Source of the DNA: Chrysophaeum taylorii
Taxonomy: Eukaryota; Sar; Pelagophyceae; Pelagomonadales; Pelagomonadaceae
Assembly (NCBI GenBank): GCA_029834535.1
Contig: JAQMWT010000022.1
Location: 1 to 64,000 of the forward strand
Direction: 5' to 3'
DNA: 64,000 bases
Shown here: piece by piece, positions 1 through 45,184 of the stretch
Numbering within the stretch: the stretch's first letter is position 1
How the letters are laid out: the number at the start of each line of letters is the position of its first letter
Made by a program: the position numbers and the translations under genes
Notes under the pieces: generated by a model
Told to the model about the DNA's origin: nothing
Seen by the model: only the letters and a program-made list of their open reading frames with translations
The model's database searches: none

Positions 1-382
1 AGCCGGGAAAGTTCCCGGCCGGATACGTTAGCTGTCGGAAGTGACGACGCGCGATTCGCGCCAGCTGACGCGCAACCTGGGTACCGCTGCCGCAGGCGAG
101 CGGAGTTAGGATCGCAACTCACGGATAAGGCATTGATTGCCGGGCAGAGACGAGTTCTGCCGCCCACCGGACTGATAGATTGTCGGTGGAAGACGCACGC
201 AACGACGATATTACGCGTGTCGACGATTAGAAGTTCCAGAGTCGAAGGAGCACGAGAACGACGACGACTCAACCATTTTGGACCCGCTCTGATCTCGGCC
301 GACTAGAACGAGCCAGAGCCGATATGGAAGACGATGATGCTGCCGTCGAGCAGCTACGATATGAAGAACCGCCGCCGTCAGG

Positions 383-3300
383 ATGAGACGAACGAGCGGA
401 ATGACGATGATGATAATGACGACGATGAAGAAGAGCGCGACACAGAAGTTGACGACGAGGAAAAGAGCTAGACTACAACGACGGCAAGCCCACGGAGAGA
501 GGGCCAACGCTCGAGCAGACGCCTTCCAAGATCAAGTAAGCTCGTTGACACGTGAAAGAGACGAGTTGCGTACGCCGAGTCGATCAAGGCGAGCGAGCAG
601 CACGGGGTCCCGAGCTGAGGAGGAGCCGCCAACTACACGATCACGCGCGAAAGCTAGGAAGCCGCGCTATGAAGACGATGATGAAGAAGAAAAGGAGGAG
701 ACGCGCGGCGACGGAAGGATCGACACCCAAGAGTTCTTGATGGGGGTTACAGATCGACTCGCCAGCGCGTTAGCTAAACACGATCGCAACAAGGAGCGGC
801 GATCAACCTCTGGATTAAAAACCGAAACTTTTAAACTGGTTCTCGATGGACGCGATCAGGACCAGTTCGATTTAGATGCGGGCGCGGTGATGAGTACGTT
901 AGCCGAAGACCATTTCAGCTTGGAGAAACTACGATATCTGCTTCCCGCGACCCTGCGCGACACAGTCGCACCGATTTTTCGAGAACACTTAGAGAAGTAT
1001 GAAGACCTGTGTAAAGACCTCGATCACCCAGCGTCTTTTTATTTACGTCGGGATATCGACGATGAGGAGTACGGTTCCGTGGTACGACGGATACGACGAT
1101 TGAACGAGAAGTATTGCCTCAAGATTTTGAAATATTTCCGAGAGAGTTGTCCGCTGCCGGTGACGGCAGAGGAATCGTTACGAAAGTTACAATGCACGAC
1201 CCAAGCGACCGTTCCGAAACGCTCTGGGGAACGCCACGTGCATACGTATTGCATTAAATTTCAGCAAGAGGCCATGGCGTACTGTTCCGTGGCCAACCGA
1301 GATCTCAACGATGTGGAGATCATCTCTTACTTGATACGCGGACTGGAGTCCAGCGAATTGAAATCCCGCGTGCGAACGATGCGCAGCGGACACCCGACGA
1401 CGTATAAGACGTTTACGTCTACGTTGTCGCTGATTACACGGCTCGAGAACGACTTCGCAACAGCCATGGCGGAGAAGAACAGCCGAAACTCAACGAACCC
1501 ATCGAGCGGGAAGCCGCAGAAGCCACCGTCTGGACGCGGAGGACGGGCTCTCGCCTCGGGAACGAAAGATAAAACGACGAAATATGAAGCATTGTGCCTC
1601 GAAGAGAATCCGAAAAAGTGGTTCGAGAGGACATGTAAGGATTGTGGGTTTTTCTTAACGACCCACGACAAGGATGAACACGGGAACCGAGTCATTTGCA
1701 ACCGCGAGCCCGACGACTATTATGTAGCGATGTGCAAATACATCGAAGACGGCAGAAAGCCCATTTCGCGAGGACGATGGGAGAGCCGACAAAGGAAAGA
1801 TAATCATTCGCGTGACGACGGCAGTTCTAATGCCACCCTCGGTTCGAGCGCTGCTCAAGATATTCAGAGCAGACTCCATGATATGGGCACGCAGCTGACC
1901 ACGGTTATGGATTCCGTGAAGCACTTAACAGATGGACACGGCCGATCGTCTTCGACACGACCGGGCCGTCGAGATAGCCGGAGCCCCCGACGCCGCGACA
2001 AGAGCCGTAGCAGCTCGCGCCAGCGCCGACGGAAAGATAGCAGGAGCTCTAGCAGACATTCACGCCGCCGCCGGCGACGAAGATCTCGCGATCGAAATTC
2101 GGACGATGGTCGTTACCGGGAAGACTCGGGACATTCGTCTGCAACGTTCGCGTTTACGACCCCTTGCGGTCAACAGTTACCATTAGGAGTGATGGTGTAC
2201 CCGAACACGGACACCCGCACCGACGACGCAGCCGACGCCCTTGCCGCGGCCGCATTCGAAGATCTTGCTCGCCCACCGATGGACGAGCCACCCAACGACG
2301 TGCTGACCAATCGTCGGTCTTTGGCACAGATTTATGAGCAGATGTCGAGCGATGAACTCGAAGATTCGAGCGATGAACTCGAAGCTCCACGATACTGGGA
2401 AGGCGATTCAGATTCGGAAGATGAAGAAGCTACACCTTGTGAACCAGTGTCCGCGATAACGTTATTTGACGAGTCGTCCACGGACGACCCACCGTTTATT
2501 TTTGACGAGGAAGCCCTCGACGCCATCGGCTTATCTTTGGACCCTCCAGAGACGACCGTTGGCGACCGAACTGGCTGTGAGCCAGACATGGATTTCTGCA
2601 GTGATAGCTTGTGCGCTCATTCGACTGACGAGACGATGACCAGCGCGAGTAATGCAGACGACGATCTTACGATAGAGTTGACGTCGGGGACGACGCCATC
2701 TTTTCCTGCGGACCCCCCCGAAACGGTTTCGGTTACTACGGATCGAGCCACGGATACGCCGCCGGAAGAAAAGGATAGATTTAAGAAGAAGATTAGCAGC
2801 GTTCTCAAGTGGGACGAAGACGAGCCGACGTGGAACCTGCAGGATTGGTGGACGAGAACTCGGAACTTCTTGCTAAAGAAGCCACCAGAACAACCGCTCA
2901 GCTACGGACTCGAAGCTGCAGCCGACACGGAACCGATCGCCGATGATGGTGATGATCAACCGAGGACGAATGAATTTACAGATGCATTCTGGAAAGACGA
3001 AATGAATGATTTATGGGAGGGGTCCTTTGCTTCCAAGAACTACGAAGACCAGGATCCCCTACCAGCGCTGATTCCCTCCGAGATTGTCTTGGAGGAAGAG
3101 CGGAAGCCGCCAGATAAAGAGGCTGCCGCGAGCGTTATGTCGATGACGCCAACAACAGATGATACGAAAGCTCAAGCCGCGGTATCGATGCCCAACCCCG
3201 GAGATGAGCGAGTCAGAGCCCGATGTGCTCACACTTCGTTGACGCCGCGAGACGGCAAGACGATCGAAGATGATTTGGTTACCCTCCGTTGTTTAGATAC

Positions 3301-5887
3301 GGGTACTCTTACGTTTATAGCCTGTCACATCTACAGGAATCGTGACGGACCGAAATTCTCGACGACCATCGGTGTCGATGGAATGGCAGATGTTTCTTAT
3401 ATTTGCCGAGAAATGGTCACAAAGTTGGCCAAAGATCAGTTGATTTTCGATGAAGGCGAACTTCCGATTAAGCGCAAGCTGTACGGATCAGGGTTGAATA
3501 CGACGACGATCTATCGTTGGATCGCCATTCGGGTCGCCCTCGCCGACGACATCGCTGCCCCCATTGTCGCTATTGTAGCCGATACGAACTATCTGTTCCT
3601 GTTGGGAGGGCGCGATATACGAGTTTTAGGAGCCGTCGTGGACTATCCCCACGATCGGATCTGTTTTTATCGAACCCAAGTCGTCTACGGGCGCAAGAAG
3701 ATTAAAGTTAAGGATGAACGAGTCGATGCACCCATCGTGACCTTTCGATCTATTTACGATCGAGATCCGATAACCGTACCGATTTACAATCATCAACACG
3801 ATGCCTTTCGGAAGAGTCTCGACCTGGTCAAGACTCGAGTTTACGCTCGTTTGAGCACGATTAAAGATCTCCGAAGCCCGCCGCCGGAACGTACGGTAGC
3901 CTTGGCTACGCGGGGACATGCTACGACCAAATTCTCCCCAGCTCCGGGAGAAGACGCGCGAGAAGTAGTGGCTTACGCTGCGCGCACGCTTCAAATCGAG
4001 CCCGGTCGAACTTACAATCTACCGGTTATTTTGTCGAAACCTATGGAAATGGGACAGGTTTTCGTCGCTACGTTTGCTGAGAACGAGCAGTTGGGAGTTG
4101 TCGAAGGAATGTGTTCTTCTTGCGAAGAGCACGACCGGTCCGCTGCTCGGGTGGCGGTTACTGCCACGGAAGAAGTGCCGACGGTCGTCACTCAAGGCGA
4201 AGTCCTTGCGATTGGCGATATCGTTAGGTACGAAGATGAGTTGAACGTCTCTACGATCAACGAACTTACGAAAGAATGTGAAGAAGGATACGACAAGGGG
4301 AACCTTTCTTTCACCGTTTCTGTCGCTAGTCACTTGACGCGATGCGACGAATCTCCCCCGCCGATGCTGCTGAGCACGGTGCAGAAGGACGCTACGACCG
4401 CTATGGCGGACAAGTCCACCCTCAAACGACCCGAAGGCAGCGACGATTTCGCTCGAAGGTCGGAAGAAGATGAAAAGAAATGCCGCGAGATCACCGAAGC
4501 GGAGATCCGCCGCCGATACGAAAAGGTTCAATGGCTTCCAATCACTTATCGCAAGGTGGTGATGCTGTTCAGTGGAGCCGGAGGCAGTACTTTAGGTCTC
4601 CAACGAGCCAACGAAACGTGTGGGACGTCGTTTCGAGTCGTGCTAGCACTCGATGCGTCGGACACCGCCAACCAGATCCACCATAAGAATTTTCCGAATA
4701 TTCCTGTGGTGCAGCACACACTGTGTGGTCGCTATGTTACAACCTTACGGTTGATCGAATCTTATTTACCCTACGCGGAATGGTCGTCGTCGATGTGTGT
4801 CGCGTCGCCACCCTGCGTACACTCCGCTCTGTGCAACTTGACCTCCAGAGATGTTGGGAAAGGAGTCACCGCTACCCACTGGACGATGAAATTATGCAAG
4901 ATGGCTGGTTTCTTCATGTGGTTGATAGAGCAGGAGGCCTCGATTATTTCTTACGTTGCACGTTTGCACCCTTACGTGTACGTCGTCAATTTTTACGACA
5001 TAACGCCCAGTTTGATGAGCTGTCGCGTGCGATTGTTGGTTTCCAGCCATCCGCTCCATTTGCGCGCAGTTCCAAAGACTTGCAAGAATATGCAGCAAGA
5101 GTTCGCCGCAGCACTTGGCTACGCCGACGAACGACATTTACTTCAGATGAACAATTTAGGATCATCACGAGCCGCGACAGACGCAGCTTATACCGTTACG
5201 CGTGTCCCGCTTCGCGTAGGACCGCACCGTTCCGATTACAGATCTCTGAATCTGAAAATGACTTCGGAGTTGCTGACGATGCCCCTTGATTTTGATTGGG
5301 CCGGCTTCTCCAGGACGACCTCGTTGAAACACTTGGCGTCCGTCGTGCCACCAGACACGATGACCTTATTAGTACTCGATCTGCACAACTCTGTGACCAA
5401 GGATTTTCACCTGAGCGGCGAAGCTTTGCCGTCAGCGTTGAGTCCTGCAGACCGACCGTTTGATTATTATTTGCAAATTGATGAAACCACCCTTCGTCAC
5501 GTACAAGTTCCGCTGTTAAACACGCGCACACGTGTCGTAAGATGGGTGTCGACTGATGATCTCCAAGATCGCACCAAATGGAAACCTCCAGAGGTACCGT
5601 TGATTCCGCCTGCAACAGATGAGCCGGGGACGTCTCATGCTTCTTCTGCTGCCCCCCCCCGACAACCAAATTTGGACGTTCCGCCAGATCCTGAGCGAGA
5701 TCGGGAACCGAAGATTAAGAGCGAGCCGAGTGTTCGTGTCAAAGGCGAGAGGATCAACAAAAGCCACCCGGAAGTGAGACTAAAATATGAGAAAAGTTCG
5801 ATGTGCCATGGAAAGATGCGCCGCGCGATGCTGAGGGTGCACCGCTGCCGCAAACTCCCGAGCATGTCAAGGATAACGAAGCTATGA
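383..5887 (+). CDS. Retrotransposon ORF1: Gag, SR-rich region, retropepsin-like region and C5-cytosine DNA methyltransferase
   Basis: This is a 1834-aa polyprotein. Residues about 130-390 are a helical Gag-like region. C418 and C421 with a later His and Cys suggest a degenerate zinc finger. Residues about 518-575 are rich in RS/SR dipeptides, then comes a long acidic linker. A retropepsin-like part has VDGMAD at 998-1003 and LLGGRD ending at D1078. Residues about 1390-1665 look like a DNA cytosine-5 methyltransferase: motif I LFSGAGG (1395-1401), motif IV SPPC with C1478 as the expected nucleophile, VVNF around N1536 where ENV is expected, CRVRL at 1547-1551 for motif VIII, and a motif X-like VVPP (1654-1657). 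The ATG follows an in-frame stop at 362. The end overlaps the pol ORF, which lies in the -1 frame. Family assignments are by motif; the protease is the weakest. Confidence 0.8.
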   Translation: MRRTSGMTMMIMTTMKKSATQKLTTRKRARLQRRQAHGERANARADAFQDQVSSLTRERDELRTPSRSRRASSTGSRAEEEPPTTRSRAKARKPRYEDDDEEEKEETRGDGRIDTQEFLMGVTDRLASALAKHDRNKERRSTSGLKTETFKLVLDGRDQDQFDLDAGAVMSTLAEDHFSLEKLRYLLPATLRDTVAPIFREHLEKYEDLCKDLDHPASFYLRRDIDDEEYGSVVRRIRRLNEKYCLKILKYFRESCPLPVTAEESLRKLQCTTQATVPKRSGERHVHTYCIKFQQEAMAYCSVANRDLNDVEIISYLIRGLESSELKSRVRTMRSGHPTTYKTFTSTLSLITRLENDFATAMAEKNSRNSTNPSSGKPQKPPSGRGGRALASGTKDKTTKYEALCLEENPKKWFERTCKDCGFFLTTHDKDEHGNRVICNREPDDYYVAMCKYIEDGRKPISRGRWESRQRKDNHSRDDGSSNATLGSSAAQDIQSRLHDMGTQLTTVMDSVKHLTDGHGRSSSTRPGRRDSRSPRRRDKSRSSSRQRRRKDSRSSSRHSRRRRRRRSRDRNSDDGRYREDSGHSSATFAFTTPCGQQLPLGVMVYPNTDTRTDDAADALAAAAFEDLARPPMDEPPNDVLTNRRSLAQIYEQMSSDELEDSSDELEAPRYWEGDSDSEDEEATPCEPVSAITLFDESSTDDPPFIFDEEALDAIGLSLDPPETTVGDRTGCEPDMDFCSDSLCAHSTDETMTSASNADDDLTIELTSGTTPSFPADPPETVSVTTDRATDTPPEEKDRFKKKISSVLKWDEDEPTWNLQDWWTRTRNFLLKKPPEQPLSYGLEAAADTEPIADDGDDQPRTNEFTDAFWKDEMNDLWEGSFASKNYEDQDPLPALIPSEIVLEEERKPPDKEAAASVMSMTPTTDDTKAQAAVSMPNPGDERVRARCAHTSLTPRDGKTIEDDLVTLRCLDTGTLTFIACHIYRNRDGPKFSTTIGVDGMADVSYICREMVTKLAKDQLIFDEGELPIKRKLYGSGLNTTTIYRWIAIRVALADDIAAPIVAIVADTNYLFLLGGRDIRVLGAVVDYPHDRICFYRTQVVYGRKKIKVKDERVDAPIVTFRSIYDRDPITVPIYNHQHDAFRKSLDLVKTRVYARLSTIKDLRSPPPERTVALATRGHATTKFSPAPGEDAREVVAYAARTLQIEPGRTYNLPVILSKPMEMGQVFVATFAENEQLGVVEGMCSSCEEHDRSAARVAVTATEEVPTVVTQGEVLAIGDIVRYEDELNVSTINELTKECEEGYDKGNLSFTVSVASHLTRCDESPPPMLLSTVQKDATTAMADKSTLKRPEGSDDFARRSEEDEKKCREITEAEIRRRYEKVQWLPITYRKVVMLFSGAGGSTLGLQRANETCGTSFRVVLALDASDTANQIHHKNFPNIPVVQHTLCGRYVTTLRLIESYLPYAEWSSSMCVASPPCVHSALCNLTSRDVGKGVTATHWTMKLCKMAGFFMWLIEQEASIISYVARLHPYVYVVNFYDITPSLMSCRVRLLVSSHPLHLRAVPKTCKNMQQEFAAALGYADERHLLQMNNLGSSRAATDAAYTVTRVPLRVGPHRSDYRSLNLKMTSELLTMPLDFDWAGFSRTTSLKHLASVVPPDTMTLLVLDLHNSVTKDFHLSGEALPSALSPADRPFDYYLQIDETTLRHVQVPLLNTRTRVVRWVSTDDLQDRTKWKPPEVPLIPPATDEPGTSHASSAAPPRQPNLDVPPDPERDREPKIKSEPSVRVKGERINKSHPEVRLKYEKSSMCHGKMRRAMLRVHRCRKLPSMSRITKL

Positions 5888-8800
5888 AAGTTCAAATTCC
5901 TACGAAGGAAGAAGTTGACAAGGTTGTTCAGGAGCTGGGAATTCCTGACAATCCGCACTTAGATGACGAGGCGAAACTGATGCTCCGTCACTGTGTGCAA
6001 TATTCTTGGGCCTTTTTCGACCCGATTATGAGACCTGTGGACTCGCCTCCTGTGTCTCTACGATTCAAAGACGCGAATCCGCGACCGATTAAGATGACGC
6101 CCTACCGATTGACGCCTGCGAAGCTCGATTGTCTCCGCAAGCAGATCAGCGAGTGGTGCCGGGATGGAGTCATTCGTCCGGCCAACTCACCTTGGGGCTT
6201 TCCTGTGTTGATGCTTCCGAAGAAAGGAGCTGAGATTGGAACGTCAAACGCGTTCCGTGCTGCAGTTGACTTACGTCAGCTCAACGATCAATTGGTCAAT
6301 GACAGTTGGCCGAACATTCGACAAGATGATGCTTTAGCTTTTCTCGCCATGCGACGATGGCGGACATGCATTGATATTAGATGGGGATACCACAACCTTC
6401 GTCTGGATCCGGCAGCGCAAGACGCTGTCACGATGGTTAGCCCACTTGGCGCTCATAGTTTCTTGCGATTACCTCTAGGTGTGAAGACGGCCGGAGCTCT
6501 TTTCTGCAAGCAAATGGCGAGCGACCTTTCGAAATGGATGTATCAAGACTTGGTTGCGTTTGTTGACGATATTATGATGGGATCCGACGATCTTCATCGA
6601 CATTTACAAGTTTTGATCGAAGTGATGTGTCATTTGGCACAGAGAGGGTACAGCGGTCGAACCGCGAAGTTCCACCTTCTCAAGGATGATATAGAATTTC
6701 TGGGACACATTTCTACCCCAGAAGGCTTGAAGCCGAATCCGAAGACGCTGGAAGCACTGCAGAAGATGCCGATTCCAGGTACTTTACCGAATACTTCCCC
6801 GAAGACCCAGATACGCTCTTTCATCGGCATGAGTAATTACTGCCGGCGATATGTGAAGGGCTACTCGAAGATCGTGGAACCGCTGAGACGATTATGCCTC
6901 GAAGGTGTAAAGTTCGAGTGGACGCCCGAGTGTCAGAAAGCTTGGGATACGATTATTGAAGCTTTGGTTGATTCCCGTGGAGTCTACCACCCCGATTATG
7001 ATCTGCCTTTTCAGATCCGATCCGATGCTTCCAAGGATGGACTTGGAGCATATCTCTTCCAGATTGTCGAAGTCAAGGACGATGCCGGAAGAGTGACTCG
7101 AGAAGAACGAGTGATTGAATATTGGAGCCGAGCTGTGCCGAAGGAGATGCGCAATTATGAGCCCCGTCGGCTAGAGCTGCTGGCAGTTATACTTTCTCTA
7201 GAGCACTTTCGAGCCTACATCGAAGGGCACCGGACTGTTTTGGAGACCGATCACCGAAATTTGACGTTTTTACGTAAGGCGACGCACTCGTCTGGGCAGC
7301 TTGCTCGTTGGGCGATGCGCCTCGCCAATTTTGACCCTGAACTTGGTTACAAGCCGGGAAAGTCACCGGGAATGAGTATCCCTGACTGTCTCTCCCGCAA
7401 CCCGATAGATCATGTCATCGAGACTGACGAGTTTGGAGAACCTTTGAACCACGCTTATTTGGTGTTCCAAGAGCTCCCCCGACCTGTTGATGACCGAGGA
7501 GTTCCCGCTTCCGGCTGCCACTTCATAATGTCGTTTATTACGACCGAACTGCCGGAAGACGAGGAAGAAGATCCTGAAAAGGATCCGATAAAATTGGCTA
7601 CGTCTCACGCTACGAGACAACGTCGGAAGAACCGTGCGCGCGATGAGCCACAGATCTTCAAGGACGCAGCCGCTTACAAAGATTATATCGATAAGATACC
7701 CGATAATATGACGCTCGCTGAGATCGCACGTGAGCAAGAATCTGATGCTACTTGCGAGGATATTCGCTACCGAATGGCCCAAGGTCAGACGCCGCGACGT
7801 TCCCGAGCGAACGAACGATTCGAAGTCGTTAAAGACGTTCTTTGCCGCATTTCTGCTGATTTGCACCCGATGATTGTTGCACCTGCTACGTTGCGCAAGC
7901 GCATTATTCGACTCTACCATGACACTCCGGTTAACGGTGGTCATATGGGACGTCACAGTACCGTCCAGGCTATCCAAGAACGATTTTGGTGGCCTCACAT
8001 GTCGAACGAAGTTGGAGTCTTCATTGCTGAATGTTTAGTTTGCCAGAAAGCTCGTACGCCTGAGCCGAAACGAGCTGGACTCTTGCAGCAGCCCGTCTAC
8101 GATGGTGATGATGCTGTTCTCTGCATGGATTTATTTGGACCCTTGCCCAGCGCTGGTCCCGAGACGTATCTTCTAGTATTTTTTGATCCGTTCTCGCATT
8201 TCTTGATTCTGGATGTTTTGAACGATAAGACTGCTGAGTCTGTCCTCGAGTCTTTTGTCATTAACATTCTCCTCGAGGGCTACTTGCCCCAGATGATTCG
8301 CACCGACAACGGTAAAGAGTTCGTGAACAAGTTGATGCGCGAGTTTTGCCATCTCTTCAACACACGATACCAAACTACGATTCCTTATCATGCCCAGTCG
8401 AACCCGGCTGAGCGTGTAAACCGATTTATCAAGGCCTTCCTCCGTGCTTGCCTTCAGGGCCGGAACATCACGGATTGGCCTGACTTTGCTCATTATATTG
8501 CGTTTTGCTACAACCGCAAGTTTATTCCAGGCACGCAGATTTCTCCCTTTATGCTGCGCCTGAACCGTCAGCCGATGCTGCCGACCGACTACACGCTTAT
8601 GGACTTTGATACGCGATTATTGCCGAAGACTCGCTCTGATGCAGTCGCCGAAACTCGTGAACGATTGAAGTATTATACGAAGATCGTCCGCGAGGCTCGT
8701 GATAAGGCTTTGAAGAAACAACGATTGGCTTACAATGCTGATCATGTTGATGTTGAATACAAGGAAGGATCGCACGTTTTGCTCTACATTCCTTTCCTTC

Positions 8801-9420
8801 AGAACAAACTTCGACCGGAATGGCGAGGACCGTTTATTATCAAGGAACGCCTTTCCCCGGTCACCTATAGGATTGAGTCTCTCGACTCTCCGCCCGAAGA
8901 ACGACGTGTTCATGTTAGTCAGATCACGCCTGTGATGGTACCTCCGATCGTTGATCAAGCCATCCGCAAACCCGAAGAAACCTTCCGTGATGATTATCAG
9001 CACGGCAAGTTTGTTGTTTTCCGGATTCCTGACCGGAAGCGCTCTGATTGGCGCAAGAAGATTTATGTTGCTGAAGTTTATGAGCCTTACGATTACCAAA
9101 ATGATCGTGTTGCTCTACATTTCTATTCCGATTTGGGTCCGAACGATGATGTGGCTTATTTCAAGCCGACCTCTCACCTTTCGCACCGCAAGCTCAAGCC
9201 CGAGTTCAAGGACGTTGAAGGTCGAAGTTTCACCGACAAGTCCAGAATTTCCTCCAACACAACTCCTTGTGTCACGGATTTCGCTCCGCACGAGATTGAT
9301 GTGTTGATCCCCAAGTTTACTTTGCGCAGTGGCCGAGTTCCTGAACCGGTCATCACCCGCGTTTACCAGAAGATTCGTTCACGAGATGCTCGTAAGGCGA
9401 AGCCGCGCTCCTCGCGCTAG
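5791..9420 (+). CDS. pol: Retrotransposon ORF2: reverse transcriptase, RNase H, integrase
   Basis: Frame 1 is open from just after a stop at 5788-5790 to 9420. The first in-frame start-like codon is GTG at 5803, so translation probably depends on a -1 frameshift or another recoding from ORF1 in the 5791-5887 overlap; no classical slippery heptamer is obvious there. Numbering from 5803, the RT active site is FVDD at 253-256 (6559-6570), with the upstream catalytic Asp in CIDIRWGY. RNase H begins near IRSDAS (D408). Integrase has a zinc-binding H706/H714/C744/C747 and a catalytic triad D776, D835, E870. The C-terminal region after about residue 950 resembles the SH3-like and basic tail of gypsy integrases. 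All key residues are intact, so the product could be active. Confidence 0.9.
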   Translation, partial: EKFDVPWKDAPRDAEGAPLPQTPEHVKDNEAMKVQIPTKEEVDKVVQELGIPDNPHLDDEAKLMLRHCVQYSWAFFDPIMRPVDSPPVSLRFKDANPRPIKMTPYRLTPAKLDCLRKQISEWCRDGVIRPANSPWGFPVLMLPKKGAEIGTSNAFRAAVDLRQLNDQLVNDSWPNIRQDDALAFLAMRRWRTCIDIRWGYHNLRLDPAAQDAVTMVSPLGAHSFLRLPLGVKTAGALFCKQMASDLSKWMYQDLVAFVDDIMMGSDDLHRHLQVLIEVMCHLAQRGYSGRTAKFHLLKDDIEFLGHISTPEGLKPNPKTLEALQKMPIPGTLPNTSPKTQIRSFIGMSNYCRRYVKGYSKIVEPLRRLCLEGVKFEWTPECQKAWDTIIEALVDSRGVYHPDYDLPFQIRSDASKDGLGAYLFQIVEVKDDAGRVTREERVIEYWSRAVPKEMRNYEPRRLELLAVILSLEHFRAYIEGHRTVLETDHRNLTFLRKATHSSGQLARWAMRLANFDPELGYKPGKSPGMSIPDCLSRNPIDHVIETDEFGEPLNHAYLVFQELPRPVDDRGVPASGCHFIMSFITTELPEDEEEDPEKDPIKLATSHATRQRRKNRARDEPQIFKDAAAYKDYIDKIPDNMTLAEIAREQESDATCEDIRYRMAQGQTPRRSRANERFEVVKDVLCRISADLHPMIVAPATLRKRIIRLYHDTPVNGGHMGRHSTVQAIQERFWWPHMSNEVGVFIAECLVCQKARTPEPKRAGLLQQPVYDGDDAVLCMDLFGPLPSAGPETYLLVFFDPFSHFLILDVLNDKTAESVLESFVINILLEGYLPQMIRTDNGKEFVNKLMREFCHLFNTRYQTTIPYHAQSNPAERVNRFIKAFLRACLQGRNITDWPDFAHYIAFCYNRKFIPGTQISPFMLRLNRQPMLPTDYTLMDFDTRLLPKTRSDAVAETRERLKYYTKIVREARDKALKKQRLAYNADHVDVEYKEGSHVLLYIPFLQNKLRPEWRGPFIIKERLSPVTYRIESLDSPPEERRVHVSQITPVMVPPIVDQAIRKPEETFRDDYQHGKFVVFRIPDRKRSDWRKKIYVAEVYEPYDYQNDRVALHFYSDLGPNDDVAYFKPTSHLSHRKLKPEFKDVEGRSFTDKSRISSNTTPCVTDFAPHEIDVLIPKFTLRSGRVPEPVITRVYQKIRSRDARKAKPRSSR

Positions 9421-9785
9421 CACCTCGCTGGGGCAGCTCGAATTCTTACCAGGGGAGTCCTGTGGCGGCAACTCCCGCCTCCTAAGGCTTACCCCTCTTC
9501 TAGGGCCCCCCCTTATCAGGGGCACCCTACTCCGTTCTGATGATGTCAGTTTTCTTTATGACATCATCTTCCTTTCCGTGACATGTGTCACCCTGATTTC
9601 TGTGTTTCGATAATATCTTAATCATAAAGCAACAGCCGATCCTCAAGTTGTGAGGACCAGGCACGGAAGTTGTTTGTGGTTGTGTGGCGGGAGAACGGCC
9701 ATCCTCGTCCAGTGACTCCATCAAGGGCACGGACGCGAGCGGCGAGCCAGGATTCGAAGGCACGCCAGGTAGCCCCTAAAATCCC
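9421..9785 (+). other. Probable 3' LTR region of the retrotransposon
   Basis: No gene is seen here. The stretch starts after the pol stop and contains AGGGGAG (9451-9457) next to TGTGG. A 10-bp inverted repeat, GATGATGTCA at 9539-9548 with TGACATCATC at 9559-9568, is separated by a 10-nt loop, and a perfect 14-bp palindrome lies at 9578-9591. TGACATCA-type sites resemble bZIP (CREB/ATF) sites, so these could be LTR promoter elements. An A/T-rich run follows at 9609-9630. Identity as an LTR is inferred from position only. Confidence 0.35.
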
Positions 9786-10280
9786 CCTTACGCCACAATG
9801 CCCCCCCCCACACACCCCCCTCTTAGCAGTCGACATTTAAAGACAAACAGGACCCCGACTAGGTCCCGCGTACTTATCTCCGCCCGTCAGGCACATCCCT
9901 CCTACCCCACAAAACCACCCACATCCTTCATGCCCCCCACACACACACCCCTCTTGGCAGTCGACATTTAAAGACAAACAGGACGTCTAGCAGTCGACAT
10001 TTAAAGACAAACAGGACGTCACCCTTCGTTGCACATACGTCCGGCGGCAGCATGCGTACGACCTACGGGCGGGGCCCGTCCTCTCTTCGCCTGCCCCACG
10101 ACTCGGCAATGACCCCGACTAGGTCCCGCATACTTATCTCCGCCCGTCAGGCACATCCCTCCTACCCCACAAAACCACCCACATCCTTCATGCCCCCCAC
10201 ACACACCCCCCTCTTAGCAGTCGACCTGTAAAGACAAACAGACAGACAGACAAACATCTGTCGATTAGTAGTAAGGATTA
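9786..10280 (+). repeat. Cluster of truncated non-LTR element 3' tails
   Basis: Several partial copies of one tail follow each other. Each holds a CCCACATCCTTCATGC segment, a C-rich CACACACACCCCCCTCTT stretch and then AGCAGTCGACATTTAAAGAC or a close variant (for example near 9825, 9954, 9988 and 10215). The longest copy, 10019-10280, also encodes part of a degraded peptide. It matches, in inverted orientation, the sequence at about 18290-18540, where the same tail follows a longer decayed reading frame. Such 5'-truncated copies sharing a 3' end are typical of non-LTR retrotransposition. Confidence 0.6.
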
Positions 10281-40721: not shown

Positions 40722-43187
40722 TTACGACGACGACGACACCACCTCATCATCCGTAGTAGCACTCGTCGCAGCAGTAGCAACAACCCCGGGGGGTACGGCG
40801 GGAGAGCGGATGACGAACCACGAGTCTCGTCTAGAAAAAGTGGCGGATTTAAGGGCGGGGTCGTGGACGACCTCAACTCCGCACTCCACGTGGAGCTTGC
40901 GTATCCGGTCGGGCGTCATCGCAGTCCCGCCTCTCTCGATGCAATGGAGCCATTCCCCGAGCTTGGAGTGCCGCAGAGGGTAGGTTCGACACCCGTCGGC
41001 CGCGCGACGGAAATCGCAGAGTTCCGCAATCCGCTGGTCGAAGACTCTCGCGCGCTCGTCAAAAACAAAACCCACCGCCTCGAGGCTCCGCAATTTCTCG
41101 GCATCGAGGCGGCCCGCTTTGTAGTCAATGCGCACCCGACGTACCCACTTCCCGAGATCGACGACGACCGGGCGCGCCTTTCGGTCGTCGTCGTCGTCGT
41201 CGTCGTCGTAAACGATCGGCACCTTGCACCTCGTGGGCACGTGGCCATGGGCTCTTTTGTGATTTTCGTACGCGGCGAGACCCGCGTCGAAGATGTCATA
41301 AAACCTGGGCGCCTTGGGCCTCGACTTGGGCTTTTTTGTCTCGAAGCCGACGCGCCTGAGCTCCTTCAACCGCTCGGGCAAGATCATGCCGTCGGCGAAG
41401 CGACGGTTCTGGTTGCGGACCCAGGACCCGAGGCGGGTCGAGCGTGCCACGCGCGGATTTTTGCGCTTTGCCTCGGTATAGGCCTGCCAATCCTCCAAGT
41501 TTAACTGCCATTGAGCCGCTTTCGTGTCCCAGACCATCCCGAGCGCGTCCAGTTTCGCCACCTGGTCGGGCATCAGCTTGCCCTGCTTGAAATCGACTCG
41601 CTGCCGCGACACCCAGGAGCCCAGGCGGTTTTCCTCCATATACGCGAACGGCACCATGCAGTGGCCGTACTGCGCGTGGAAGCGCACGAGTCCTTCGTAC
41701 CTTTCGTCCCATTTCGACGTCAGCCGCAGCACGGCCGCCCTCACGAGGTCGTCGAGCGCCTTGGCCATGCCCGGGACCTTGGCATCCACGATGATGCGCG
41801 GTTCCTTCTTTGGTTCATTCTGGTCGTCCGAAGAAACACCCGGCAGCACCAGCCCGTCATCCCTGATTACGGCGCGCCAGTCCTCCGCGTCGCCGACCGC
41901 CCGGAGGACGGCCAACACCGTCCCGAAGTCGCTCTCGTCCACGTCGTCCATCGTGATTTCCTCGTCCTCCTCCTCCTCCTCGTCGTCGTCGTCCGGGTTG
42001 TGTGTTCTTCTTCTTCTTCTTCTTCTGGTCGCGCGGACCGGCACGACCACGAGTCCCCTGGTTTTGCCGGGGGCCGCTCGCGCCGCGCGCGCGGCCATCT
42101 GCGCGATGTCGAGGTGAGATCTCCTCGGTTCGGCGACGACGACGGCGTCGATCGACGGCACGTCGACGCCCGTAGCGAGCAACCGCGCGTTCGTTAGGAG
42201 GTGCTTTTCAACGGCCGAATTGCTCTCGCGCACGACCCTCAGGATACCCTCGCGCTCCTCGGGCGACATCCCGCCTTCGACGTACGTCGTCTTTACCTCG
42301 GGCCGGTCGACGACCTTGAAGACGACGCCGGCCGCGGCCGTGAACGCCTTGACGCGGACCGTGCGGTTGAGGAAGCACAAAGCGCGGCTCACGCCGTAGT
42401 CGTCGTATATCCGCTTCAGCACCAGCGCAATCTCGACGTCGTCGGCCTGCTTGTCGGCGACGCGCGGCGAGTCGACGACGACGACCTGGAGGGGCACCGT
42501 TACGCCGCTCGCCGCGGCAGCCTCGCGCGACATCTCGAACACAACCTCTCCGTACGAGGTTTTGTCGTCCATCGAGTGCCGCGACCGGTCGGCCATGGGG
42601 ACGCGCGTCGCGATGCGCGGCGTCGCCGTCATAAACAGCCGGAACCGCGCGCGGAATTCGTCCGAGACCGCCGCTCCGTACCCGCTCGGTTTATGCTTCC
42701 GAGTCACGTACGTCGTCACGTGCGCCTCGTCCAGCACCGCAATGTCGACCGTGCGCCTCGAGCGCGCGAGGGCCTCGACGAGCTTGGGCAGCGACCGATA
42801 CGTCGACACGATCAGTAGTAACCTCTTCTCTTCTCCCGACGACGACAACGCCTCGCGCAGCGCGTCGACGCTCGTCGTCCGAAGCACGTCCCCCGCCGCG
42901 CGGCTCGCGACCACTAGAGTTGTATCGAGCAGCTCGGGCGACCATCGCCGGTACTCGCGCAGCGTCTGGTCAACGAGCGCGAGCGTAGGGACGACGACCA
43001 CGCCGATTGACTTGGCGAGCGATGCGACCACGCGGGCGCCCACGAGCGTCTTGCCCGCGCCCCCGGGCAGCACCACCGTGGCGCGAGTGGCGCCTCCTCT
43101 CGCGTGCGAAACGACGGCCTCGATGGCGGCGGCCTGGTGCGGCCGCGGCGTGCACAAAAACCGCCGAACCAACACGCCACAACGCAT
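40722..43187 (-). CDS. Superfamily 2 helicase with helicase-associated repeats
   Basis: The start is ATG 43187, giving 821 aa; the frame is open beyond it into the divergent gene. The Walker A motif is LPGGAGKT (K46), DEAH lies at 153-156, MTATP follows, and QMAARAARAA is the motif VI position. After a poly-acidic insert, about four helicase-associated (PF03457-type) repeats follow from about residue 480. Each has the form W...Y..L..F....GH..VP......LG.WV..QR..fk.G.L...R...L...GF. These triple-helix repeats are thought to bind DNA and are common in diatom and pelagophyte proteins. The restriction-type helicase core with such tails may act in DNA repair or chromatin, but this is inferred. Start codons of this gene and the DEAD-box gene are 59 bp apart. 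Confidence 0.85.
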   Translation of the reverse strand: MRCGVLVRRFLCTPRPHQAAAIEAVVSHARGGATRATVVLPGGAGKTLVGARVVASLAKSIGVVVVPTLALVDQTLREYRRWSPELLDTTLVVASRAAGDVLRTTSVDALREALSSSGEEKRLLLIVSTYRSLPKLVEALARSRRTVDIAVLDEAHVTTYVTRKHKPSGYGAAVSDEFRARFRLFMTATPRIATRVPMADRSRHSMDDKTSYGEVVFEMSREAAAASGVTVPLQVVVVDSPRVADKQADDVEIALVLKRIYDDYGVSRALCFLNRTVRVKAFTAAAGVVFKVVDRPEVKTTYVEGGMSPEEREGILRVVRESNSAVEKHLLTNARLLATGVDVPSIDAVVVAEPRRSHLDIAQMAARAARAAPGKTRGLVVVPVRATRRRRRRRTHNPDDDDEEEEEDEEITMDDVDESDFGTVLAVLRAVGDAEDWRAVIRDDGLVLPGVSSDDQNEPKKEPRIIVDAKVPGMAKALDDLVRAAVLRLTSKWDERYEGLVRFHAQYGHCMVPFAYMEENRLGSWVSRQRVDFKQGKLMPDQVAKLDALGMVWDTKAAQWQLNLEDWQAYTEAKRKNPRVARSTRLGSWVRNQNRRFADGMILPERLKELRRVGFETKKPKSRPKAPRFYDIFDAGLAAYENHKRAHGHVPTRCKVPIVYDDDDDDDDRKARPVVVDLGKWVRRVRIDYKAGRLDAEKLRSLEAVGFVFDERARVFDQRIAELCDFRRAADGCRTYPLRHSKLGEWLHCIERGGTAMTPDRIRKLHVECGVEVVHDPALKSATFSRRDSWFVIRSPAVPPGVVATAATSATTDDEVVSSSS

Positions 43188-43246
43188 TTGGTTCAAGCTG
43201 CGTGCCACTGCCAGCGTAATATACTTGTGTAGCTTGCAGACACGAA

Positions 43247-45184
43247 ATGTGGCGGCGGCGAGCCGGTGGCGGAACCTACAATCCGCCGCAGTCGAAAACC
43301 GTGGCGAGGCCGGGGGAGGAGGCGTACGTCGCGAGCTCGCGCGCGAAGCACGACGCGAGACCCAAGTCATACTTTGACGAGGAGAGCGACGACGACGACG
43401 AGGAAGTCTCGAAAAAAACGAAGGAGACAGAAGACTTTGAAGAAGTCACGAAAAACAACGGCTTCGAAGACGAGGAAGACCCGCTCGACGCTTTCATGGC
43501 GGGGGTGAACGCGAGCCTGAAGAAGAAGACGGAAAAAAAGAGCCCGCGGCCCGAGCGGCTGGACCTGGCGGCGCGCGACGCGGTAGACGAGGCGGCGTTC
43601 GCGGAGCGCGAAATCGAGGATGACCACGCGAAACGCGAGAAGAAGAATGAGGAGGAGGAGGAGGAGGAGGCAAGGTTCGTGGACGGTCGGCTCGTCGTCG
43701 ACCGCGAAACGAAGAAAAGGAAGATCGCCGCTTTTAAGGTGACCCACGAAGGTCGCGAGTATCCGGCGTTCGTACCGACGACGACGGCTCGGGCGTGGAA
43801 CGGCGACGCGCTCGAGGCCGAAGACTGGCCGCGGTGCGCGGAAGCCGCCGTGCGGCCGATGCGCGATTTCGGGGACCTGCCGATCGCGTGGCTGCGGCGG
43901 GCCATCGAGCGCCGCGGACTCTCGAAACCTACGGACGTCCAGGCGGTCGCGGTGCCGGCCGCGTTGTGCGGGTTCGACGTGCTGGCAACAGCGCAAACCG
44001 GGTCGGGGAAAACTCTCGCCTACGGCTGGCCGATGCTCGCATACGTCGCCGCGCAGCCGCGTAGCCAGCAGGACGAGGGGCCAATCGGGCTAGTGGTGTG
44101 CCCGACGCGAGAACTAAGCGATCAGGTCTCTCGATCGCTGAGAAAGTTCGCGCCAGAAAACGTAGACGTCGTCGCCGTCTTTGGCGGCGCGGGCAAGTGG
44201 GAGATGGGCCGCGCGTTGCGGCGCGGCGGCGACATCGCCGTCGCGACCCCGGGTCGGCTGTTGGAACTGGCCGCGGAGATCCCAAATCTGCTGCGATCGC
44301 GGTGCTGCGTCGTCGCCGTAGACGAGGCCGATCGCATGTGGGAGCTCGGTTTCCACGACCAGCTCGCGTCGATCATAAAGGCCGTGCGGCCCAAGGAGCG
44401 CCAGCTCGTAGTGTGTTCGGCGACGATGCGCCACGATTTGGAGTTCCTCGCGCGAGGTTCGATGCGCGGCAGGTGGACGTGTAGGCTCGCTGCGCGCGAA
44501 AACCAAATCTCGGATCGCGTCTCGCAGCGAGCGGTGGTGCTGGGCTCGGACGACGAGAAAACCGTGTGGCTCCAGAGATACTTGCCGAGTCTTGGGGGTA
44601 AGCCTCTCGTTTTCGTGTCTCAAAAGGCGCGAGTCGACGACTTTGTCTCGCGCTTTGGCTGTCTCGGTCTCCACGGTGACAAGGACGCGCGCGAGCGCGG
44701 CGAGATATTGGCCGCCTTCAAGCGCCGAGGGGTAAGGGCCATGTTGGTGGCGACGGATCTTGCGGCGAGGGGGCTCGATCTCCACGTGACCGCTGTGGTC
44801 AACTTGGACGTGCCCAAGTCCATCGAGGACTACGTCCACCGGGTCGGCCGCGCCGGCAGGCGAAGCGAGGACGGCGTTGCCTACACCCTCCTCGCCCCAA
44901 AGGACAAGCCCTTCGCAAGGCTCCTCGTCAAGAAGCTCCTCATGACCGCCGGTGGTGCCAACAATACAAACCGGCCTTCGATGGACCTCCTGCAGTTTGC
45001 CGACCTCAAGTACGTCGCGACCGACGATTCGTCCGACCGCGGCTTCGGGGCCGAAGTAGCCCCGCCCCCCTCCTACCCCCCTTCGTTTCCTGCCGCCCCG
45101 ACCGCGGGGAGTGATGGGACGGCCGAGGCCATCGCACGGGCCCGGGAAATTGCCCTCCGCCTCCGAAAACCCACCACCTCCTAA
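43247..45184 (+). CDS. DEAD-box RNA helicase, DDX42/DDX46-like
   Basis: This is a 645-aa single-exon protein from ATG 43247. The acidic N-terminus contains EDPLDAFMAGV, a line typical of DDX42 and DDX46/PRP5 splicing helicases. The Q motif region is GLSKPTDVQAVAVPAAL. Then come motif I AQTGSGKT (K255), PTRELSDQV, DEAD at 359-362, SAT, FVSQKAR, DLAARGLDL and HRVGRAGR, so the core is complete. The enzyme probably acts in the U2 snRNP/pre-spliceosome step of splicing. The C-terminus ends in a short Ala/Pro-rich tail without RS repeats. The 59-bp gap to the divergent SF2 helicase implies a shared promoter. Confidence 0.9.
   Translation: MWRRRAGGGTYNPPQSKTVARPGEEAYVASSRAKHDARPKSYFDEESDDDDEEVSKKTKETEDFEEVTKNNGFEDEEDPLDAFMAGVNASLKKKTEKKSPRPERLDLAARDAVDEAAFAEREIEDDHAKREKKNEEEEEEEARFVDGRLVVDRETKKRKIAAFKVTHEGREYPAFVPTTTARAWNGDALEAEDWPRCAEAAVRPMRDFGDLPIAWLRRAIERRGLSKPTDVQAVAVPAALCGFDVLATAQTGSGKTLAYGWPMLAYVAAQPRSQQDEGPIGLVVCPTRELSDQVSRSLRKFAPENVDVVAVFGGAGKWEMGRALRRGGDIAVATPGRLLELAAEIPNLLRSRCCVVAVDEADRMWELGFHDQLASIIKAVRPKERQLVVCSATMRHDLEFLARGSMRGRWTCRLAARENQISDRVSQRAVVLGSDDEKTVWLQRYLPSLGGKPLVFVSQKARVDDFVSRFGCLGLHGDKDARERGEILAAFKRRGVRAMLVATDLAARGLDLHVTAVVNLDVPKSIEDYVHRVGRAGRRSEDGVAYTLLAPKDKPFARLLVKKLLMTAGGANNTNRPSMDLLQFADLKYVATDDSSDRGFGAEVAPPPSYPPSFPAAPTAGSDGTAEAIARAREIALRLRKPTTS

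Follow-up and report, generated by a model that had tools for sequence, protein, structure and literature searches.

A divergent C5-cytosine methyltransferase domain in the polyprotein of Ty3/gypsy retrotransposons of the pelagophyte Chrysophaeum taylorii

The DNA considered here, referred to as the window, is the 64,000-nucleotide stretch from position 1 to 64,000 of contig JAQMWT010000022.1 (contig C22 below) of the pelagophyte alga Chrysophaeum taylorii (assembly GCA_029834535.1). Positions 1-9797 are occupied by a Ty3/gypsy long terminal repeat (LTR) retrotransposon, within which, between a protease-like stretch and the reverse transcriptase (RT), lies a domain bearing the motifs of a C5-cytosine methyltransferase. 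Since the window begins at base 1 of the contig, the 5' LTR of the element presumably lies beyond the contig start. The class of the element is evident from the order RT, RNase H, integrase and from a further copy on contig C486 (L082, L083), in which both LTRs are present (339 and 337 bp) within a 5-bp target duplication, GGTAG (one copy examined). Since no more than five substitutions and one 2-bp indel separate its two LTRs, the C486 copy appears to have moved fairly recently. An earlier note on this DNA, made from the letters alone, had taken the element to be of gypsy type, with the methyltransferase between a protease-like region and pol; the Pfam matches to RT, RNase H and the H2C2 and rve parts of integrase bear out the first point, and the second holds with a protease-like stretch that is recognised by eye only. 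The features of the element, all on the forward strand, are as follows.

383..5887, +, ORF1 (1834 aa, from the open reading frame listing): gag-like region, protease-like stretch, C5-methyltransferase domain and linker
3240..3690, +, protease-like stretch, divergent, ends approximate, by eye (VDGMADVSYI at 3374-3403, LLGGRDIRVLG at 3599-3631)
4550..5380, +, C5-cytosine methyltransferase domain, whose motifs I to X follow the canonical order (Pfam, hhalign, Foldseek, bacterial C5-methylase profiles)
4568..4585, +, motif I FSGAGG, the S-adenosylmethionine site (GAGG in 46 of 48 loci)
4805..4816, +, motif IV SPPC with the predicted catalytic Cys 1478 of ORF1 (48 of 48 loci)
4928..4933, +, motif VI Glu-Gln, with Glu 1516 in 'LIEQE' (Glu in 48 of 48 loci, the next Gln in 47)
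5021..5035, +, motif VIII CRVRL (RxR in 45 of 48 loci), aligned beside the QxRxR of reference enzymes
5243..5353, +, motif IX-like SLNLKMTSELLTMPLDFDW (5243-5299) and motif X-like ASVVPP (5336-5353; VPP in 45 of 48 loci), by alignment with references
5803..9420, +, ORF2, pol (1205 aa, open reading frame listing and Pfam): RT, RNase H, integrase and an extra C-terminal domain
6217..6711, +, reverse transcriptase PF00078 (Pfam, 2.6e-12)
6994..7332, +, RNase H-like PF17917 (Pfam, 1e-25)
7882..8391, +, integrase zinc-binding PF17921 (H2C2) and core PF00665 (rve) (Pfam, 2e-18 and 6.6e-12)
9461..9797, +, 3' LTR of 337 bp, the end of the element (repeat comparison)

The motif counts refer to 48 loci, equivalent to 47 copies since L084 contains L074, and are generous, 30 of the loci having been picked for their best scores. 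SPPC followed by the motif VI Glu is intact in every one of them, and some of the losses of GAGG, RxR and VPP fall in broken or shortened copies. Motifs I, IV (with Cys 1478), VIII-like and X-like, on which the earlier note had relied, are all found by coordinate in ORF1 in the order that it gave; the motif VI Glu-Gln and the motif IX-like stretch are also present and had been overlooked. The spacing from the Cys to the motif VI Glu is 38 residues in the window copy, as against 37-49 in seven reference enzymes.

Profile comparisons point in the same direction. The Pfam profile of C5-methyltransferases, PF00145, which the earlier note had proposed as a check, matches a 299-aa piece of the window significantly (E 4.4e-6; 26.8 bits, cut-off 22), and it matches all 11 rows of an alignment of the A, B and C subfamilies of the element (best E 1.4e-10). 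With the whole of ORF1 the score is 21.9 bits, 0.1 below the cut-off (E 1.4e-4), and routine annotation could therefore miss the domain, so that similar cases may be undercounted. The limit used for PF00145 in PMC12344493, E < 0.0001, lies near this value, a rough comparison since the databases differ. Apart from PF00145, the sole Pfam match of ORF1 at E <= 1 is a weak one to DUF4964 (0.094, under its cut-off). Bacterial C5-methylase profiles give 9.3e-10 with the window piece and 5.4e-11 with locus L066. Moreover, when 14 members of this first family were compared by hhalign with seven references (five phage proteins, the host Dnmt2-like protein and a piece of the stand-alone enzyme P0001), the value was 97.4% over 253 columns spanning motifs I to X, and 40 column-shuffled versions gave at most 2.3%. 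A Foldseek search with a predicted model of low confidence, which is therefore no more than supportive, has C5-methyltransferase family members in all 50 rows shown, and no structural alignment shown exceeds 20% identity; in a further fold comparison, Rossmann-fold RNA methyltransferases were nearly equal in structural score. Window positions 4550-5380 thus almost certainly encode a complete, if very divergent, C5-methyltransferase fold.

Close relatives of this domain are not readily found. The ORF1 protein search gave no homologue among 3811 candidates scored, and a search with the domain profile gave P0001 alone, weakly (E 0.24), among 8000. No relatives were seen in viral contigs or prokaryote genomes by the patterns used, sequence searches placed the domain close to no methyltransferase class, and a host-gene origin finds no support, the candidates scored having included no close relative. 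In the Protein Data Bank (PDB), the proteins that match the window piece best by sequence are DNMT2, at a weak E of 0.03.

Within the genome, in contrast to a domain confined to the window copy, there are at least 131 matches, which answers the copy count that the earlier note had suggested. This is a lower bound, as scoring covered 131 of the 1005 candidates from a first look at the 70.8 Mb and 697 contigs; among the matches listed, 102 are without a stop in the matched stretch and 29 contain one. Some pol copies have no partner among these listed matches. The ratio of non-synonymous to synonymous divergence (dN/dS) between the window copy, of subfamily A, and eight B copies is 0.05-0.06 at dS of 1.7-2.1, values which are rough because dS is near saturation (the comparison omits L081; L077 and L078 are intermediates, with ratios of 0.26 and 0.12). 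Against L084, dN/dS is 0.06 in the domain and 0.05 in the RT; the middle part of ORF1 gives 0.35, the segment that leads up to the domain 0.17 and the tail 0.26, and in gag and protease dS is saturated. Within the subfamilies, the ratio is 0.18 for C (4 copies) and 0.22 for B (8 copies). For 30 copies of subfamily A the ratios are 0.15 (domain) and 0.28 (RT), but these copies had been selected by protein score in the same domain, and the A-versus-B comparison was used in their place. By that comparison, the methyltransferase domain is under purifying selection as strong as that on the RT.

A caution is that the window copy passes into another reading frame between the methyltransferase domain and the RT. 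In L015, on contig C5, the two lie within a single open frame. In two copies on this contig, of which L015 alone was read, the methyltransferase and pol matches are listed with one open frame each (3063 aa and 3067 aa); the two-ORF layout may therefore be peculiar to the window copy. Beyond the integrase, window 9004-9420 contains a stretch (GKFVVFRIPDR...VAEVYEPYD...LHFYSDLGPNDD) that is, by eye, common to P0002-P0004, P0007 and P0009; it looks like a chromatin-reader barrel, and no Pfam profile matches there at E <= 1.

The age of the association can be approached from the RT. A protein search with ORF2 gave 74 proteins (8000 candidates scored), of which 13 (P0002-P0014) have 47-64% RT identity, matches over 350 residues being otherwise at 35% or less. 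In a 62-row RT tree made by a quick method, the window element and nine of these 13 form one clade (SH-aLRT 100). Four of the nine extend at least 300 residues upstream of the RT, and the domain profile matches all four (domain E of 1e-57 for P0004, 3e-57 for P0003, 2e-28 for P0010 and 2e-6 for P0002, the last covering only the C-terminal end of the domain); the remaining five begin within 185 residues of the RT. P0002 is, by its taxid, from Chrysocystis (Pelagophyceae, MMETSP1165), P0010 is also from MMETSP, and P0003 and P0004 are from metagenomes; by their source labels two of the four are transcripts. The Chrysocystis transcript, together with the many light-harvesting genes of the genome, is in keeping with the stramenopile host that the earlier note had considered. 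In both P0003 and P0004 the domain and the RT share one open frame. Among the other 71 proteins none matched the domain profile at E below 1 except the stand-alone P0001, and of the 52 rows that fall outside the clade in the tree none has the domain, although only 38 of them extend 300 residues, and 12 extend 600 residues, upstream of the RT. Since the clade divides most deeply into P0003 and P0004 on one side and the window element, P0010 and P0002 on the other, and the domain occurs on both, its presence in the common ancestor is the simplest account. On the basis of these four relatives, the domain was most likely already part of the ancestor of a divergent gypsy clade.

The methyltransferase is, then, probably no recent capture. 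Of the earlier note's proposal that a retrotransposon had captured a methyltransferase, what stands is that the enzyme is encoded by the retroelement, in many copies and under purifying selection; a recent capture is not supported. Recent capture from the host, in particular, is disfavoured by the domain-bearing RT clade. The host has methyltransferase genes of its own, which by eye are not close to the domain. L031, on contig C634, is Dnmt2-like, with SPPC and LENV and a PF00145 match of 4e-19 over nearly the whole profile. L032, on contig C621, is DNMT5-like, with a GTSC motif by eye, a PF00145 match of 7.9e-18, an open frame of 2086 aa and a weak RING-like match (E 0.23). As regards the clade itself, two of its pol proteins, P0005 and P0008, are filed under metagenome-assembled genomes of Pseudomonadota and Planctomycetota; they are most likely eukaryotic contigs in bacterial bins.

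A search of the genome with PF00145 gave 121 matches and revealed a second multi-copy group, which was sampled by its 28 best-scoring loci (L033-L060). All 28 match one another in a C5-methyltransferase that is different from the window's. By hhalign, here without a shuffled control, this second family scores 96.7% over 154 columns against the references and 0.1% against the first family, and a common origin of the two element methyltransferases of this genome finds no support in the latter value. Near-full copies retain LPCQ (16 of 16), ENV (15 of 16) and AGGL (14 of 16), and dN/dS is 0.15 among 11 copies without stops. A protease-like stretch precedes the methyltransferase, by eye, in L036, L042, L047 and L048, and a long insertion, also seen by eye, lies ahead of motif X; this insertion falls in the target-recognition part and holds an HLD motif (CAYHLDG). 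Pfam finds no integrase in the downstream piece, the sole PDB match of which at E <= 10 is an 'Integrase', 7z0h (E 0.1), which we take to be the Ty1 integrase. This weak match makes a copia class likely, if provisional, for the second family.

C5-methyltransferases flip their target base, attack C6 via a Cys and protonate through a Glu. In the window element Cys 1478 would make this attack on the flipped base and Glu 1516 would protonate, and from the sequence the domain is quite probably active in at least some copies. The reading that is preferred here, with modest confidence, is that the methyltransferase serves as an enzymatic domain of the Ty3/gypsy polyprotein, is packaged, and methylates new cDNA to the benefit of the incoming copy. 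The polyprotein would run in the order Gag, protease-like stretch, C5-methyltransferase, RT, RNase H and integrase. Because the domain lies between the protease-like stretch and the RT, and is in frame in L015, P0003 and P0004, it would be produced together with RT and integrase and packaged with them in the particle. Cytosines of the newly made cDNA would then be methylated before or during integration, and the mark on the incoming copy would aid its survival or its placement in the host. There is a slight leaning towards DNA, as cDNA, as the main substrate; that the benefit comes from protection or from chromatin placement is put forward only tentatively. In a wider perspective, the Glu-Gln enzymes would, on balance, constitute a new class of C5-methyltransferase, encoded since ancient times by a core gene that a whole Ty3/gypsy clade of marine algae, pelagophyte-type and others, has in common; a second LTR family would have convergently recruited its own, placed after its protease, and methylation of the element's own nucleic acid would be a regular step of replication.

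Several observations weigh against this reading. Motif VI is Glu-Gln, as opposed to the usual Glu-Asn-Val of the references. The Pro before the catalytic Cys is lost in relatives (PSC in P0003 and P0004, PDC in P0010), and motif I is degenerate in P0010. The structural model is of low confidence (mean pLDDT 48.7, pTM 0.46), the A-versus-B ratios are, as said, rough through near-saturated dS, and the gag and protease of ORF1, assigned by eye, are without a Pfam match. Moreover, a footprint of CpG methylation is missing. In 28 element copies, pre-selected by domain score (L016 and L024 were dropped from 30 for poor alignment), there is no excess of C-to-T at CpG: singleton changes fall at 37 of 664 CpG sites (0.056) and at 88 of 1330 CpH sites (0.066), and CpG observed/expected within the element is 1.35. 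These values speak against a lasting, mutagenic CpG mark, and they lend no support to the earlier note's conjecture that the element may methylate its copies to escape host silencing. Finally, in PMC5890265 neither the SymbioLINE nor the KnitGypsy enzyme produced methylation when tested in yeast, a result deemed inconclusive there. A transient mark, another sequence context or an RNA substrate may each be compatible with the missing CpG footprint. CpG is over-represented in the rest of the window as well (10301-64000; observed/expected 1.28), despite the DNMT5-like gene in the genome.

An RNA substrate is the chief alternative to cDNA. The enzyme would in that case be DNMT2-like in its use, acting as a cytosine methyltransferase on element RNA or primer tRNA, which is possible, if doubtful. 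The weak PDB matches to DNMT2 (E 0.03) and the CpG footprint that was not found both fit such a role, as do the link of DNMT2 and DNMT6 with RNA (PMC12344493), the RNA activity proposed for the Symbiodinium LINE enzyme (PMC5890265) and an orchid gypsy element that bears an RNA demethylase (PMC9289625); on the other hand, the profile tie to bacterial enzymes is at least as strong as that to DNMT2, and a location beside RT and integrase fits cDNA equally. That the domain descends from an enzyme but has lost catalysis, and is retained in the particle for binding nucleic acid or cofactor, appears unlikely: the Glu-Gln of motif VI, the Pro lost ahead of the Cys in P0003, P0004 and P0010 and the degenerate motif I of P0010 are what such a non-catalytic module might display, whereas the Cys and Glu are retained in all 48 loci and in P0003, P0004 and P0010, and motif I is intact in the compared A, B, C, P0003 and P0004 rows.

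It is very improbable that the enzyme acts in trans, on rival elements or on the chromatin of the host, and so alters the host methylome. The copies are indeed many, and the host has DNMT5-like and Dnmt2-like genes, but the remainder of the window shows no CpG depletion. Scarcely tenable is the view that a gene fragment was inserted by chance into a single copy, or that the motifs match falsely, as might be argued from the marginal Pfam score of the full ORF1 (21.9 bits) and from the two protein searches, in which no close homologue appeared among the 3811 and 8000 candidates scored. This view is refuted by at least 131 matches, a dN/dS of 0.06, the shuffled controls and the same position of the domain in elements of other organisms.

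Methyltransferases of retrotransposons have already been described, in Symbiodinium and Klebsormidium (PMC5890265). KnitGypsy-Dnmt3 of Klebsormidium nitens is like the present element in being an LTR gypsy element with a C5-methyltransferase in its polyprotein and evidence of purifying selection (there Ka/Ks < 0.2). It differs in that its enzyme is of the Dnmt3 class and lies inside the Pol ORF, whereas here the domain stands between protease-like stretch and RT and close relatives were not found, and in that its repeats are arranged as in DIRS elements, in place of the flanking LTRs and 5-bp target duplication of the one copy examined here. SymbioLINE-Dnmt and SymbioDIRS-Dnmt3 of Symbiodinium are likewise many-copy retrotransposon C5-methyltransferases, the former also being of an orphan class; their elements are, however, LINE and DIRS elements of dinoflagellates and not Ty3/gypsy (PMC5890265). 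SymbioDIRS-Dnmt3 enzymes methylate CG in yeast, and cDNA methylation has been proposed for the Symbiodinium DIRS elements (PMC5890265). According to one sentence of PMC12344493, DNMT3 occurs in 'LTR Copia and DIRS families'; these cases may resemble the second, copia-like family, with the proviso that the enzyme there is assigned to DNMT3. The orchid gypsy elements with AlkB (PMC9289625) similarly represent a gypsy lineage with a fixed extra enzyme that modifies nucleic acid; unlike the domain described here, theirs was acquired recently and demethylates m6A in RNA. With bacterial and phage C5-methyltransferases, DNMT2 and DNMT1 the domain shares motif order, Cys-Glu spacing and predicted fold, and it is set apart from them by the Glu-Gln of motif VI, an identity of 20% or less and its place in a retroelement polyprotein.

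No account of the methyltransferase-bearing lineage found here was met among the open-licence papers listed, which is no proof of absence. What appears to be new is the lineage, the Glu-Gln class, its age and the occurrence of two families in one genome. That retroelements should bear an enzyme of the silencing type is a puzzle, the detailed cases found being those of dinoflagellates and one charophyte (PMC5890265). The present enzyme is seemingly old enough to mark a clade and is constrained like the RT, with a second family in the same compact genome; by comparison, it becomes possible to test what a retrotransposon gains from methylating, and through the Glu-Gln class a substrate or sequence context not seen before could come to light.

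Elsewhere in the window, a helicase with three helicase-associated (HA) stretches lies at 40725-43370 on the reverse strand and adjoins a DEAD-box helicase at 43247-45181 on the forward strand. In the genome at large there are 84 matches to light-harvesting genes, and contigs C88, C539 and C390 carry clusters of them with identical or near-identical profile scores, as in tandem arrays.

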